Positions 28,365 through 64,000 of a stretch of 64,000 bases of DNA are shown here, one piece after another. The notes beneath the pieces are model-generated. The model had not been told where the DNA came from, made no database searches, and was given only the letters and a program-made list of their open reading frames with translations. The position numbers were made by a program, and so were the translations under genes. The stretch is from a virus: the IMG/VR virus record IMGVR_UViG_3300021420_000022, positions 28,393 through 92,392 of that record; one strand, given 5' to 3'. Positions within the stretch are counted from its first letter, which is position 1. The number at the start of each line of letters is the position of its first letter.

Positions 28365-28627
28365 AAGTTCGCGCTGGATCGAAGTACATCTTCTACCCGA
28401 ACATGCTCGACCGCATAGACGGTCGCACCGAGCTCGTACCCGGCTCCATCGTGACTGTAGTCCGGATGCCTGGCTGCCCGCCGCCGAACACGATGAATCA
28501 CGCGCATGTGAACTACAACGGCAGGTTCGCTGGGCTCGTCCACACTAACTCGCTCCACTCACTGAAGGACAAACAGCTCGTGATCGACGCTATTAAGCGC
28601 GATCTCGCGAAGGTGAAGCATGAATAG
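28361..28627 (+). CDS. hypothetical protein
   Basis: 88 residues from the ATG at 28361, overlapping the previous stop. Small-beta start GSKYIFYPNMLDRIDGRTE and a VVRMPGCPPPNTMNHAHV motif with conserved Cys/His. Function unknown. Confidence 0.6.
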   Translation: MKVRAGSKYIFYPNMLDRIDGRTELVPGSIVTVVRMPGCPPPNTMNHAHVNYNGRFAGLVHTNSLHSLKDKQLVIDAIKRDLAKVKHE

Positions 28628-30862: not shown

Positions 30863-31375
30863 GTGATTGCCAAACGATTTGGGCCTAAAAATTCATGGGG
30901 TAAACTGATGGATCGTCGCGCATCGCATCTGAAACTTTATAATCTCACGGTTACTGAGTGGGACCTTATTGACGCCTTCCAGAACCATGTCTGCGCAATC
31001 TGTCATCGGCCTAACAAATCTGGCAAACGCCTCAGTACAGACCATTCTCACATCACCGGCATAATTCGCGGATTGCTGTGTCAACGTTGCAATCGAATTC
31101 TTGGAAAGATCGAAGACCCTCGATTTTGGCGTGAAAATACGATAGCGTTGTTGCGCGCCGCCGCTGACTTTCTGGAGCACTTCCCGGCAGTTCTGGCTCT
31201 GGGCCGAGAAATTTTTACTTACCCCGGTAGGTTGGGGACTAAAACCCACCGAGCTTGGCTGCGAAAGAAAATTCGCGTTGTAACTCCGGCATCTATTAGG
31301 ACGGAGAGGGATGGAAGAAACCTTAAAAGCACTACTTCCCACAGGCGGTCTGCCTTACCCGGGCGAAGACTTTAA
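30863..31375 (+). CDS. endonuclease VII-type HNH protein
   Basis: 170 residues from GTG at 30863; an ATG at 30908 is an alternative. The nuclease core is HVCAICHRPNKSGKRL, then TDHSHITGIIRGLLC and QRCNRILG: two zinc CxxC knuckles around the catalytic DHxH. The domain ends near residue 110; the remaining 60 residues run through the dispersed 32-base element (coding KIRVVTPASI) and into the next gene, so the true C-terminus is uncertain. Endo VII proteins resolve branched DNA or act as homing nucleases. It follows the structured RNA directly. Confidence 0.75.
   Translation: MIAKRFGPKNSWGKLMDRRASHLKLYNLTVTEWDLIDAFQNHVCAICHRPNKSGKRLSTDHSHITGIIRGLLCQRCNRILGKIEDPRFWRENTIALLRAAADFLEHFPAVLALGREIFTYPGRLGTKTHRAWLRKKIRVVTPASIRTERDGRNLKSTTSHRRSALPGRRL
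31270..31301 (+). repeat. dispersed 32-base element, copy B
   Basis: Identical over 32 bases to the minus-strand copy A. It ends 9 bases before the ATG at 31311, so its last bases and the following GGAGAGGG make up that gene's leader. Confidence 0.85.
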
Positions 31376-36631: not shown

Positions 36632-37027
36632 TGATTGGAAAGATTTGCGTTCGCTGCCATCGGGAAAAGCAATTACAGAATCGCCGTATCCGAATGGCGT
36701 CGAGCTAACCCCGAAAAGATTCATGCGAAGCAGGCTAAATACCGTCGTCTTCGTCCGAGAGATGAGCTAGAGCATCGGGTCCGTTACGAGTATCAGTTTA
36801 CAGAACCCGAAATCGAATACATTCTTCGTTGGCGGGGCGGAAAGTGTCCTTGTTGCGGAAAAATGATCAAGCGACTGGGCGTAGGACTTTCGGATGGCTG
36901 CATCGAACACGATCATAAAACGAAACGATTTCGAGGAATTGTTTGCGGCTCGTGTAATCGGGCTCTCGGATACGTACAGGATAAAATTTCTGTCTTACGC
37001 GGACTGATTAAATACTTGCGAGGGTAG
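36631..37027 (+). pseudogene. frameshifted endonuclease VII-type HNH gene
   Basis: An ATG at 36631 starts MIGKICVRCHREKQLQNRRI, the usual N-terminal zinc knuckle, but this frame stops at 36711. The next frame continues EWRRANPEKIHAKQAKYRR, the usual following segment, and then an intact core CPCCGKMIKRLG, HDHKTKRFRGIVC and GSCNRALGYVQD. A base change plus loss of about 15 residues between them explains this. The C-terminal domain could still be made from TTG at 36635. Confidence 0.6.
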
Positions 37028-56242: not shown

Positions 56243-56605
56243 ATGCACGGAAAGCTTTATTATGACCAGCGCAAATCACTCGGCTTATGCCCACGATGCG
56301 GAAATTCAGTTGACGGTCGAGTGATTTGCCTTCCGTGTCTTGCAAAGCAAAAGTTGTCTAAGTTAGACCTATCACCCGAGGAAACCGAAAAAGCGAGAAC
56401 CTCCTTTCTGAATTTTGACGGAACATGTCAATGCTGCGGTTCGAGTGATCCCGGTGGAAAGAAGGGTTGGTGTATTGACCACGATCACATTCGAAGAGTT
56501 TTTCGAGGAATCATATGCCAACACTGTAACATAATGCTAGGTCGGGCTCACGATCAAATTGAATGGCTCTTCGCGGGCATCAAATATTTGAGAAAATTTT
56601 TATGA
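56243..56605 (+). CDS. endonuclease VII-type HNH protein
   Basis: 120 residues. Two zinc knuckles (LCPRCGNSVDGRVIC and CQCCGSSD) and the core IDHDHIRRVFRGIICQHC with LGRAHDQIEW. Intact. It ends 5 bases before the first paired base of the tmRNA acceptor piece, an arrangement suggestive of a homing gene that travels with the RNA gene. Confidence 0.8.
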   Translation: MHGKLYYDQRKSLGLCPRCGNSVDGRVICLPCLAKQKLSKLDLSPEETEKARTSFLNFDGTCQCCGSSDPGGKKGWCIDHDHIRRVFRGIICQHCNIMLGRAHDQIEWLFAGIKYLRKFL

Positions 56606-56610
56606 GTTAC

Positions 56611-56932
56611 GCACGTCAATGTCTCATGGTCACTCACGCGGACGCGGGTTCGATCCCCGCTAGGTCCACCAATCCTATCACGGCCTTGTTAATTCACATG
56701 GCCGAGATAACTTCTGCGGGCCTAAATTGGTTTCGACGGGTGAGATTGATGGTGGGAAGCTCGTGCCGTAAGTGGACACTGTCGATATCAGTGTACCAAA
56801 CTAAAAATGCCATGCGAATGCTGGCGAAGGCTGTAAGCTTTGTGAAGTCGCTGTTCACCATGCCGAATTTTGGTATGGAAGCAGCCGCTTCCATGGCCTA
56901 GAGCCGGGAGGGGCTGTCCGAAAGATGGCCCC
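56611..56932 (+). ncRNA. ssrA: circularly permuted (two-piece) tmRNA
   Basis: Order is 3' half, spacer, 5' half. Acceptor piece: GGACGCGGGTTCGATCCCCG (T arm 56644-56660), acceptor strand TAGGTCC (56661-56667), A, CCA (56669-56671). Spacer 56672-56717. Coding piece: GGGCCTA (56718-56724) pairs with TAGGTCC over 7 bp, then the tmRNA hallmark GGTTTCGACGG (56729-56739). P2 pairings between pieces: GTGAG (56740-56744) with CTCAC (56633-56637), TTGA with TCAA (56616-56619), CGTGC (56762-56766) with GCACG (56611-56615). Hairpin ACACTG/CAGTGT (56776-56794). Tag frame starts at GCC 56809 and stops TAG 56901; about 30 residues, AMRMLAKAVSFVKSLF to AAASMA. Final 9-bp hairpin 56910-56932 with CGAAA loop. 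Tags elsewhere are usually 8-15 residues and end in LAA or VAA, so the long cationic tag is odd. Confidence 0.87.
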
Positions 56933-56958
56933 TTCACTTTCAAAAATAGGAGACGACA

Positions 56959-57339
56959 ATGGCAGTGAAAAAGAAGGGCAAGAAAAAGAGCAGGAAATCA
57001 CCGAAGAAAGTAACAGGAGAGAAAATGATCAAGCTGACTGACAAGAACGGCGAGGCACTCAACCTGCTCGCGACTCGGGCGTCTGATGAATCGCATTACG
57101 CTACGCGGAGTGCGATCCGTAAGGCCCTGGACGAAACCGTAGAGTACAACGGCGGCGGATATTCTCAGATTACCCGCGAGCCGCTTGTCGAACTTCAGAT
57201 CCGACGAAATGACCGCGACGATGTCACCTACACTGAGTCGCTGACGGTCGGCGTCATATTCAAGCGCGGGATTCTTCAGTTCGGCTGCCACACTTTCAAC
57301 CGGGCGACCTCGAAGCAGATCGTTCAATGGGCGCGATGA
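56959..57339 (+). CDS. basic-tailed hypothetical protein
   Basis: 126 residues. Lys-rich start MAVKKKGKKKSRKSPKKVTG, then a compact domain (EKMIKLTDKNGEALNLLATR). GGAGACGAC upstream. Lies between the tmRNA and its partial copy. Confidence 0.65.
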   Translation: MAVKKKGKKKSRKSPKKVTGEKMIKLTDKNGEALNLLATRASDESHYATRSAIRKALDETVEYNGGGYSQITREPLVELQIRRNDRDDVTYTESLTVGVIFKRGILQFGCHTFNRATSKQIVQWAR

Positions 57340-57503
57340 TCGGCAAGACACAGGAAGACATCATTCGCGTTCGGGAATTGCTGGGACCGGTCAACGATCT
57401 TGTGCCGGACTCGGTAATTATTGATGGTGGGAAGCTCGTGCCGAGAATGGACACCTCGTATAAAAGCGTACCAAACCACAAAAGCCAAGTCTATTCTGGC
57501 TAA
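57336..57503 (+). CDS. small protein overlapping the tmRNA-like copy
   Basis: 55 residues, MIGKTQEDIIRVRELLGPVN then IIDGGKLVP. ATGA-coupled to the previous gene. From 57420 on, its codons are the tmRNA-like repeat read in a different frame; the tmRNA itself would read IDGGKLVP and stop there. It may be the source or the victim of the duplication. Confidence 0.5.
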   Translation: MIGKTQEDIIRVRELLGPVNDLVPDSVIIDGGKLVPRMDTSYKSVPNHKSQVYSG

Positions 57504-57607
57504 GGTGGCTAGCTTCTTGAAGTCGCTGGTTCCTGCTCTCCCGAGCATGGACTTCGCGCCTCAGGCGGCCTAGTCGCTGGGTGGGGTCGCCCGAAAGGTG
57601 GCCCCAC
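57420..57607 (+). other. diverged tandem copy of the tmRNA coding segment
   Basis: Matches the tmRNA from ATTGATGGTGGGAAGCTCGT onward: conserved 24-base block, TGGACAC, GTACCAAAC, an equivalent tag frame (GCC at 57484, TAG at 57571-57573; AKSILAKVASFLKSLVPALP then MDFAPQAA) and a terminal hairpin of 11 bp (57581-57607) with the same CGAAA loop and compensatory changes. It lacks the tRNA-like domain and the GGTTTCGAC box. Confidence 0.7.
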
Positions 57608-57629
57608 TTATTTCAAAAAGGAGAACTAG

Positions 57630-57857
57630 ATGAGCGCAAAAGTTATGGGGTCGACGCCACGCGAACATGTTACGCCGAGAGAAATGCGATGCGGTCAGAT
57701 CGGAACGTTCAGATATGACGGTCAACAAATTCTCGCGCTACGGACTTTCTCCGAGATCGTTGATCTGAACGATGCCGCGTCAACATGGGGCCTTGACGCG
57801 TCCTATGATATCGAGTTGCTTCCGGCGGGGACCAAAATCGAAGTTGAGGCCGAGTAG
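57630..57857 (+). CDS. hypothetical protein
   Basis: 75 residues, MSAKVMGSTPREHVTPREMR, small beta-type. GGAG upstream. Not recognised. Confidence 0.6.
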   Translation: MSAKVMGSTPREHVTPREMRCGQIGTFRYDGQQILALRTFSEIVDLNDAASTWGLDASYDIELLPAGTKIEVEAE

Positions 57858-57884
57858 AAGTAAAATCATGACGGGAGGAAACAA

Positions 57885-58439
57885 ATGAAGGGCAGAATCA
57901 AAGCAGTAGTTTTGGGGCTCGTGCTTGCTCTTGCAGTACTCGTCGCAGTTCCGTCGTACGCGCAGACCGTTGCGTTGTCCGCCGCATTTACATTCAACAG
58001 CAGTTCGCAAATCGTGTCATGGAATGGGAGTGACCCGTCTAACCCGCCATTTCCGTATGAAATGGGCGCGATTAGCCTCAACTCCAGCTTCGGTGGCGGC
58101 TACGGTTCCGGACTTGACGTTCCGTTTCAACTCGGGTTCCTGAACAACGGATTTCTCTCACCGTGTAATCCGATAGCGTTCGGAGCCAAAGTTTGGACTA
58201 ACGGCACCGGTACTCGCACCGGAGACACGTTCACAGTATCGGGCAGCACGACGTGCCCATACTTCACGGGCGAATGGGGCACCTATGAGAACAGCAACAA
58301 TCGGTTGGACGGCTTTAGCGTGACGGCCAGCTACGTTCGCACTTCGCACACGGCGTGCCGCTACGGTCGTTGCACCACGTACTACACCGATACGCTGCAA
58401 GGCGGCAGCGGGGTGGTTACAGACAGCACGATCAACTAA
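57885..58439 (+). CDS. exported beta-rich protein
   Basis: 184 residues. Signal peptide KAVVLGLVLALAVLVAVPSY, then Ser/Thr/Gly/Asn-rich beta sequence with Cys pairs (PCNPI, TCPYF, HTACRYGRCTTYYTD). Looks like an extracellular or periplasmic beta-sandwich protein of the kind seen in environmental bacteria (PEP-CTERM style without the anchor). GGGAGG upstream. Confidence 0.65.
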   Translation: MKGRIKAVVLGLVLALAVLVAVPSYAQTVALSAAFTFNSSSQIVSWNGSDPSNPPFPYEMGAISLNSSFGGGYGSGLDVPFQLGFLNNGFLSPCNPIAFGAKVWTNGTGTRTGDTFTVSGSTTCPYFTGEWGTYENSNNRLDGFSVTASYVRTSHTACRYGRCTTYYTDTLQGGSGVVTDSTIN

Positions 58440-59188: not shown

Positions 59189-59285
59189 AATTGTTGGGTG
59201 CAGCTTGCTTCCGTTCAGTTTACCTGCGGCGGCTGCGCTGCTTGTTGAGGCGGAAATTCTCGGCATCGTGGAGGAGTTAGTTTAA
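59109..59285 (+). CDS. small hydrophobic protein
   Basis: 58 residues from GTG at 59109, inside the end of the previous gene. Basic start and a hydrophobic segment PFSLPAAAALLVEAEILGIV. Stop overlaps the next start (TAATG), which supports it. Confidence 0.5.
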   Translation: MSEEQSKRKTPDPGKHLMLSLGKSVFRIVGCSLLPFSLPAAAALLVEAEILGIVEELV

Positions 59286-59683
59286 TGAAGCCAACGGTCA
59301 TTCAGATTCGTAAGCACGCTCGCGTCTATATCGTCGAAGACAACGAGGAGCGCCTGAAGTGGTTCTTCGCTAAACTTCCCAGCGCGCTAATCTGGTACGA
59401 GAAGGACCCGAAGCTAGCGGTCGAGCAACTTTCATGGTTGATGCCCGAAAGCATGGACTGCATCTTTCTCGACTTCGACCTCGGGCCGGGGAATGTCAAG
59501 CATTCGACAATCAATGCGATACCGGTTGTCGATTTTTTGAACAGTAAGCTCACGTCGCGACGTGCGCAACGTAACATCGTGATTCACAGTCAGAACGCTC
59601 CGGGCGCATTCTGGATGAACACGATGCTACCCGGCGCAGCACGGTTGCCGTTCGGCGAATTTGATATTCAAGAGGTGCCCTGA
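59285..59683 (+). CDS. receiver-like protein, cyclic-phosphate type
   Basis: 132 residues. VYIVEDNEERLKWFFAKL, CIFLDFDLGPG and NIVIHSQNAPGAFWM follow the order of the receiver-like domain described for cyclic-phosphate processing (LDxDLG, then HSxNAxG). No output domain. If so, it may act on cyclic nucleotides, including defence signals; the match was made from memory. Confidence 0.55.
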   Translation: MKPTVIQIRKHARVYIVEDNEERLKWFFAKLPSALIWYEKDPKLAVEQLSWLMPESMDCIFLDFDLGPGNVKHSTINAIPVVDFLNSKLTSRRAQRNIVIHSQNAPGAFWMNTMLPGAARLPFGEFDIQEVP

Positions 59684-62662: not shown

Positions 62663-62902
62663 ATGGCAGTAAAATACGAATGCGACCGTTGTAAAAAGCT
62701 TCAAAACCAGCCCTTGCACCCACTCAGTCCTCGGGGCATCGATTACGAGGACGACTTCAGCGACTGGCGGCTTAACCAAATGTCGTGCCGCTACGATCTT
62801 TGCGAAAGTTGTCTCGTTCTGATTGCGGAAATTCTCAGCAACCCGAAGGCTATCGTGACGGTGCCGTCAATCGTCAAAACTGGAAATGACTACGACATAT
62901 GA
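62663..62902 (+). CDS. zinc-site protein
   Basis: 79 residues. YECDRCKKLQNQPLH and CRYDLCESCLVL give two CxxC pairs. GGAGG upstream; ATGA-coupled to the phosphatase. Confidence 0.6.
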   Translation: MAVKYECDRCKKLQNQPLHPLSPRGIDYEDDFSDWRLNQMSCRYDLCESCLVLIAEILSNPKAIVTVPSIVKTGNDYDI

Positions 62903-63657
62903 TCACAACTACTAGCGCGACGGCCCAAGGAAACCGCACGTATCAAGAAGACCGTATCGTCATTGCCAAAGTTCCGTTCGGGACTCTTCTGGCCGTCGCG
63001 GACGGGCATGGCGGGTCTGAGACCAGCCATCATTTGGCGGATATTCTTGCTTCGACATGGACCGGCCTGTACACAAAGTGGGCCGGTGACCCTGTCGAAA
63101 TGTTCCTCAAGAAAGTTTTCGTCGACCTCGATGCGGAAACTCGGTTTCGAGACGCGGGGTCGACCCTCAGCGTAGTGTTTGTTGACGAGATCGGTTCCAA
63201 GGCGGCTGTAGCGGTTTTAGGCGATAGCCCGGTGATAATTCGACAGACCCGTGTTCCGGACCCTCATAAAACTTGGGTTTCACCGGAGCATAATGTCCGC
63301 ACCAACATGGTCGAGAGAGCAGCAGTACAACAGCGCGGTGGCTTCTGTTCAGGAGGGTATTGTTTCGCTCACTATTCCGAAAAAGGGCTGCAAATGACCC
63401 GCGCTTTCGGCGACATTGAGCTCGGCGGCATCCTAAGTCGCGAACCGGAGATTTTCGTTCACGAACTGAACAAACCGGCTTGTATTTTGGTCGCTAGCGA
63501 CGGGTTGATCGACCCGACTCACGTCAACGGTGAACTTAATTACGAAACAATCGTGGATATGCTCGACGCCGGTGCGGAAGCTAAAGAACTGGTGAGCCGC
63601 GCAGTCAAAATGCAAACTAACGACAACGCATCGGCTATCGTTTGGAGAAATAAGTGA
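62899..63657 (+). CDS. PP2C-type serine/threonine phosphatase
   Basis: 252 residues. PPM/PP2C motifs in order: NRTYQEDRIV, LLAVADGHGGS, AVLGDSPVII, TRAFGDIELGGILSREPEI, LVASDGLID and TNDNASAIVW, with metal-binding Asp in DGHGG, DG and DN. It would remove phosphates from host or phage proteins. No kinase is visible in this window. Confidence 0.88.
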   Translation: MITTTSATAQGNRTYQEDRIVIAKVPFGTLLAVADGHGGSETSHHLADILASTWTGLYTKWAGDPVEMFLKKVFVDLDAETRFRDAGSTLSVVFVDEIGSKAAVAVLGDSPVIIRQTRVPDPHKTWVSPEHNVRTNMVERAAVQQRGGFCSGGYCFAHYSEKGLQMTRAFGDIELGGILSREPEIFVHELNKPACILVASDGLIDPTHVNGELNYETIVDMLDAGAEAKELVSRAVKMQTNDNASAIVWRNK

Positions 63658-63764: not shown

Positions 63765-64000
63765 GATTACCGAACGGAAAAGAGACAATGTCAGTCGGCG
63801 ACCTTCAAAAAGTTATGGAGGGCCTAGACGACTCTCTGCCTGTCGAAATTTTCCCGGTCGAGTGCAACGGCGACGAGCCCCACGGCGACGAGCCCCACGG
63901 CGACGAGCCCCACGGCGACGAGCCCCACGGCGACGAGCCCCACGGCGACGAGCCCCACGGCGACGAGCCCCACGGCGACGACCCCCACGGCGATTACGGG
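63761..64000 (+). CDS. partial protein with GDEPH repeats
   Basis: The frame is open to the right edge. MRLPNGKETMSVGDLQKVME, then VEIFPVECNG and a run of GDEPH units. The first 45 residues look like a small regular domain; the rest is the repeat. Confidence 0.55.
   Translation, partial: MRLPNGKETMSVGDLQKVMEGLDDSLPVEIFPVECNGDEPHGDEPHGDEPHGDEPHGDEPHGDEPHGDEPHGDDPHGDYG
63869..63988 (+). repeat. 15-bp tandem repeat at the window edge
   Basis: Eight copies of GGCGACGAGCCCCAC, the last changed to GGCGACGACCCCCAC. It codes GDEPH pentapeptides and continues as GDYG to the edge. Confidence 0.9.

Follow-up and report, generated by a model that had tools for sequence, protein, structure and literature searches.

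Two-piece tmRNAs are produced by cutting a precursor. The two pieces then pair, alanyl-tRNA synthetase charges the acceptor, and SmpB delivers the RNA to a stalled ribosome, where a tag is added. Tag ends of the ALAA, AMAA or MLAA type (-AA) are the classic degradation ending. In Rfam, the alpha, beta and cyano clades of permuted, two-piece, tmRNA are merged as family RF04321 (tmRNA_permuted). Permuted tmRNAs are already known in phages, and are little studied. Among 18,146 phage genomes, 53 two-piece calls have been published, including isolate Melnitz (PMC9004378). Our general pattern scan for permuted tmRNAs, in IMG/VR, adds at least 119 contigs. These counts do not support the view, in an earlier note on the locus described here, that a phage-borne permuted tmRNA would be unusual. 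The most frequent tag length is given as 10 (PMC11915505).

Here, we describe a permuted tmRNA gene in a window of 64,000 nucleotides (positions 28,393 to 92,392 of IMG/VR virus record IMGVR_UViG_3300021420_000022); by ‘window’ we mean this whole stretch. What stands out is the predicted tag, which is unusually long and conserved in this phage and its relatives. At about three times the usual length, it raises the question of how a phage benefits from having a ribosome-rescue RNA of its own. We think it likely that the locus encodes a working two-piece tmRNA, which would use host SmpB and add a long tag of the degradation type, and that the locus has been rebuilt, leaving an older copy as a headless remnant.

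A complete, permuted tmRNA gene in a phage record

The source record spans 92,392 bases and contains genes for terminase, DNA polymerase and a portal-like protein; as the earlier note proposed, the tmRNA gene is indeed carried by a phage. Rfam searches, direct reading and folding identify positions 56607-56935 (+) as a complete circularly permuted tmRNA gene (Table 1). The match to RF04321, at 56611-56812 (+), scored 66.7 bits (E 1.2e-10; gathering score 47). ARAGORN also called a permuted gene at this place, although with an unsupported tag (DDNGSEKEG...). We rejected that tag, which maps to the first part of the protein gene that follows.

Note that RF04321 also gives 40-65 bits to tmRNAs of many Pseudomonadota genomes, some of which are probably standard. 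Hence, the order of the two halves was read directly from the sequence. The 3' tRNA half is encoded upstream of the 5' half. Furthermore, CCACCA is absent from positions 56701-58000, so the T-arm/CCA half is present solely upstream of the D-box. With the score and the ARAGORN call, this order confirms the permuted gene that the earlier note had recognized. The note had also pointed to Rfam's covariance models. While the merged model exceeded its cut-off, the clade models did not: alpha_tmRNA (RF01849) scored 31.5 bits (cut-off 50), cyano_tmRNA (RF01851) 39.8 bits (cut-off 70) and beta_tmRNA (RF01850) 46.3 bits, or 59.2 bits in the related contig G005 (cut-off 84).

Table 1. Features of the tmRNA locus, in window coordinates. 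Copy 1 is the complete gene and copy 2 the headless repeat; G005 and G013 are related phage contigs.
Feature	Position	Strand	Basis or remark
Endonuclease VII gene	56243-56605	+	PF02945, 56.5 bits; directly upstream; absent there in relatives
Acceptor piece (3' half of tRNA-like domain)	56607-56671	+	RF04321 alignment, fold, T-arm/P2 covariation
P2, 5' strand	56607-56641	+	Part of acceptor piece
T-arm	56644-56660	+	Part of acceptor piece
Acceptor 3' strand, TAGGTCC	56661-56667	+	Part of acceptor piece
ACCA	56668-56671	+	CCA end at 56671
Intervening segment with own stem, removal expected	56672-56717	+	RF04321 insert; fold
5' half	56718-56739	+	Direct reading, RF04321, fold
Acceptor 5' strand, GGGCCTA, G3-U70	56718-56724	+	In 5' half
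D-box, GGTTTCGACGG	56729-56739	+	In 5' half
P2, 3' strand	56738-56771	+	Pairing with acceptor piece survives changes on both sides
Pre-tag hairpin, at the place of pseudoknot PK1	56773-56798	+	Compensatory change relative to G013
Tag frame of 30 codons plus TAG stop, AMRMLAKAVSFVKSLFTMPNFGMEAAASMA	56809-56901	+	Frame common to copy 2, G013 and G005
3' hairpin of coding piece (AGGGGCTGTCCGAAAGATGGCCCCT and flanks)	56907-56935	+	Fold; kept in relatives and copy 2
Gene of unknown function between both copies	56959-57339	+	No Pfam or PHROG match
Copy 2, second coding piece without tRNA half	57420-57619	+	Direct repeat

By direct reading, the acceptor strands form a stem of 7 bp with G3-U70. The T-arm, ACCA and D-box of a tRNA-like domain are also present, and the two pieces are joined by P2 (fold and three compensated pairs). 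A model-free fold of positions 56600-56950 recovered the acceptor stem, T-arm, P2, pre-tag hairpin and 3' hairpin. The z score was -7.0 and none of 100 shuffles equalled it.

For comparison, related contigs G005 and G006 were reached via terminase relatives. Each has one full permuted tmRNA, and their tmRNA regions do not differ. The general pattern scan and DNA polymerase relatives gave a third contig, G013 (loci L039 and L163). Among the window, G013 and G005, which are few sequences and the same alignment from which the structure was predicted, 15 of 92 predicted pairs are maintained with both sides changed. These include pairs in the T-arm, P2, the pre-tag hairpin (ACACUG..CAGUGU in the window, ACGCUG..CAGCGU in G013) and the 3' hairpin. 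The acceptor stem is invariant in these three sequences. Relative to Tunturiibacter phage Tunturi_3, described below, two of its pairs are changed, each with compensation. Covariation, which the earlier note had looked to in the acceptor and P2 pairings, is found in P2 and, relative to Tunturi_3, in the acceptor stem. The intervening segment varies in length and sequence among relatives.

In sum, the window gene matches RF04321 members in its gene order, its acceptor stem (G3-U70 included), its T-arm and D-box, P2, the pre-tag hairpin and the tag frame. It differs in scoring under each clade model's cut-off, and in its tag of 30 residues instead of 10-13. The marine two-piece tmRNAs of Melnitz and others are likewise phage-borne, permuted and complete with a tag (PMC9004378). 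Unlike these, the window gene belongs to a soil phage lineage, has a second copy that is headless, and is one of a family with long, conserved tags. A glutamine riboswitch match, associated with the marine genes, was not found in the window by Rfam search.

The predicted tag is long and its frame is conserved

The tag frame opens with a G-starting resume codon, GCC at 56809, and stays open to the TAG stop at 56899-56901. Its 30 codons agree with the earlier note, which predicted about 30 residues and a length well beyond that of common tags. The same frame specifies AKSILAKVASFLKSLVPALPSMDFAPQAA in copy 2, AKNILAKVAGFLKSLVPDFSFGEFAPAAMAA in G013 and VNTMLAKVIGFLKSLVPTFESFDTFAPAALAA in G005. 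The family can be written A...LAKVxxFLKSLVP...FAPAAxAA. Tags of this lineage, from three related soil phage contigs and Tunturi_3, have 29-33 residues.

In the tag frame, synonymous exceeded replacement difference in all six pairwise comparisons, about 2-4 fold, over the first 17 codons of four sequences, one being the headless copy. In the other two frames, any synonymous excess was inconsistent, and the tag frame alone is open across the whole set of four sequences. These comparisons indicate purifying selection on the family tag in this frame and not in the others. Such conservation bears on whether the RNA might be a decoy, holding SmpB and blocking host trans-translation, as proposed for the tag-less RNA of phage DS6A. 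There is precedent, since tmRNA is inhibited by a tRNA-like domain that resembles the DS6A RNA (PMC4131195; PMC11915505). Like the window RNA, that of DS6A is phage-borne and tmRNA-derived. However, a decoy would need no tag. The DS6A RNA has no tag frame, whereas the window gene has one conserved as peptide. We therefore give the decoy very little credence.

How unusual is the length? A simple extraction rule, applied to the phage contigs listed, gave tags in two groups, of 9-15 and 22-33 residues. The long group makes up 14 of the 41 distinct tags among those contigs. Cellular permuted tmRNAs, at 31 loci that are the best-scoring of a Pseudomonadota draw rather than a fair survey of all bacteria, have tags of 10-13 residues by reading, with one of 22. 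We found no work on long tags in the phage tmRNA literature searched, which mostly excludes subscription journals; such work could exist elsewhere. Eight further phage contigs (L046, L066, L093, L111, L112, L034, L036 and L053) have permuted tmRNAs with tags of 22-29 residues that differ strongly in sequence, for example AEKADTFDFTAMSFTGNTVSGKSKVALAA. Others, from soil or other viral contigs L102 and L035, have long cationic tags such as ANTVVSFARKAKVLAFPAMRPVNAGTVGLAMAA. In the tmRNA tree, L102 is not close to the window gene and L035 is weakly so.

The tag of a working tmRNA could have a second job. Besides its degradation ending, the LAKVxxFLKSLVP module could send stalled chains to a membrane or to a particular protease. 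The N-terminal part is the best conserved across the family, and conserved as peptide. It is also amphipathic and mildly cationic, with a hydrophobic moment of 0.47-0.62 over 11 residues, compared to 0.08 for the E. coli tag, and long tags recur in several phage groups. Against this, relatives keep the usual degradation ending, and searching IMG/VR for the tag motif returned the same family only. Furthermore, the tag-region RNA folds more stably than shuffles in three of five sequences, so part of the tag length may serve RNA structure. On balance, we regard a second job as unlikely. It is similarly doubtful that a soil phage lineage, including an Acidobacteriota phage, adds a long conserved module via its own permuted tmRNA for a role beyond degradation marking. 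No more probable is the example of a module that changes which protease or membrane the proteins of stalled ribosomes meet.

For the reading we prefer, degradation, the tag ends matter. Those of the closest relatives, ALAA, AMAA or MLAA, fit degradation, judging by their sequence. They weaken the earlier note's suggestion that the tag could redirect proteins from stalled ribosomes rather than simply degrade them. In the window phage, however, the end has drifted to AAASMA, and degradation via SMA may be weaker.

An isolated Acidobacteriota phage has a related, unannotated tmRNA

Tunturi_3 (PP885686) is an isolated Acidobacteriota phage. It has a permuted tmRNA at 88172-88396 (63.3 bits), where no feature is annotated, and the paper on Tunturi_3 does not mention a tmRNA. 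Ten distant proteins are common to this phage and the window phage. In a tree of tRNA halves, the window groups with G013 (100/96), then with G005 and Tunturi_3 (98/95). The placement of Tunturi_3 is less sure because of its long branch. Its tmRNA falls in the same clade, and its tag is also long (29 or 33 residues, since the start is uncertain, ending MLAA) but clearly diverged in sequence. Because Tunturi_3 is an isolated phage with a culturable host, and its member is unannotated, the family is directly testable. Should that host's own tmRNA be of the one-piece form, two different forms would operate side by side in the infected cell. Tunturi_3 also encodes an RF-1 domain protein at 82469-82807 (annotated gp125), possibly a second ribosome-rescue factor. 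No such protein was found in the window phage.

The same neighbours flank the tmRNA gene in G006 and G013. Such retention in related phages is relevant to the idea that a host tmRNA gene was acquired by integration or imprecise excision, as an attachment-site remnant. An integrase gene does lie 4 kb away, and tmRNA genes are common integration sites (PMC11915505). Yet the gene is represented by both of its halves and the complete tag, rather than by one end, and none of the sampled cellular tags corresponds to this one. Of the explanations considered, we find this one the least credible. An exact-word scan with GATGGTGGGAAGCTCGTG gave no matches, and neighbour protein 55554, used as bait, found no relatives. 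At loci L014 and L039, a shared leader, AAAAGTC..GTGGTGGAGGCG followed by a hairpin-like stretch, precedes the acceptor piece; the window has the endonuclease VII gene instead.

A headless second copy and a proposed rearrangement of the locus

The earlier description did not include a second copy, 0.7 kb downstream of the first. Copy 2 is a direct repeat of 56745-56853 and 56903-56946, with 75-76% identity. It contains a P2-like strand, a pre-tag region, a tag-like frame at 57484-57573 and the 3' hairpin. No D-box or acceptor strand was found before it, and the RF04321 match to copy 1 is the only one in the whole record. Copy 2 lacks the tRNA-like domain of a complete tmRNA and, by its sequence, is probably a headless remnant. 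We dismissed matches to GP20-b and the Molybdenum riboswitch over copy 2, which are under their cut-offs. We did not accept as a gene a 55-residue open reading frame (57336-57503) that reaches into copy 2, since no relative of its first half occurs in the loci compared.

By its pre-tag region, copy 2 is of the G005 kind and copy 1 of the G013 kind. The G013 locus runs from a 55554-like gene through the tmRNA to a 57630-like gene and a 58748-like gene. Lying in between in the window are the endonuclease VII gene, the complete copy 1 and gene 56959, which has a 31% homologue elsewhere in G006. The simplest account, drawn from few contigs, is that these three came in and cut the resident tmRNA gene. 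The older, resident, tmRNA would have been left as the headless remnant. Two more endonuclease VII-like stretches occur in the window, at 30983-31156 and 36839-37021, which fits a mobile gene.

Two observations stand against a working tmRNA: the window tag ends SMA, not AA, and copy 2 shows that tmRNA sequence at this locus can be damaged. Both would suit a decaying passenger, no longer used in the window phage, as would the copy 1 tag being the most diverged in the family. However, every helix is intact, and the tag frame is open, with replacement below synonymous differences in every pair. We consider a decaying passenger improbable, and favour a working tmRNA.

Proposed function and host

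Processing, charging, tagging, degradation and the time of action, like the order of rearrangement, are matters we infer. Host tRNA-processing enzymes would cut one transcript into the acceptor and coding pieces, and pairing in the acceptor stem and P2 would hold the two together. The alanyl-tRNA synthetase of the host would recognize G3-U70 and charge the RNA. The phage record does not encode SmpB, so host SmpB must be used; it would bring the tmRNA to ribosomes stalled on broken mRNAs. The ribosome would then add alanine and the tag of about 30 residues, marking the product for proteolysis.

Our guess, taken from Tunturi_3 only, is that the host is an Acidobacteriota species. In a survey of this phylum, smpB was present in 45 of 46 genomes and ssrA in 45 (PMC11633108). 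A terminase profile search of GTDB genomes found no prophage relative, and hence gave no host. Cupriavidus was the sole genome match to the acceptor pattern. We rejected it as host evidence; the T-arm, pre-tag region and tag differ. Cupriavidus pinatubonensis HN-2 (L168, genome G025) has several permuted tmRNA genes, one of 157.9 bits and four more of 129-134 bits, on a plasmid and two chromosomes; the tags that were read are ANDEKFALAA. Similar extra permuted copies occur in other Cupriavidus.

Elsewhere in the window, genes at 62899-63657 and 59285-59683 resemble a PP2C protein phosphatase and a cyclic-phosphate processing receiver domain. Near the contig end, an open reading frame on the minus strand (63824-63988) reads VAVGLVAVGLVAVGL..., a short tandem repeat.
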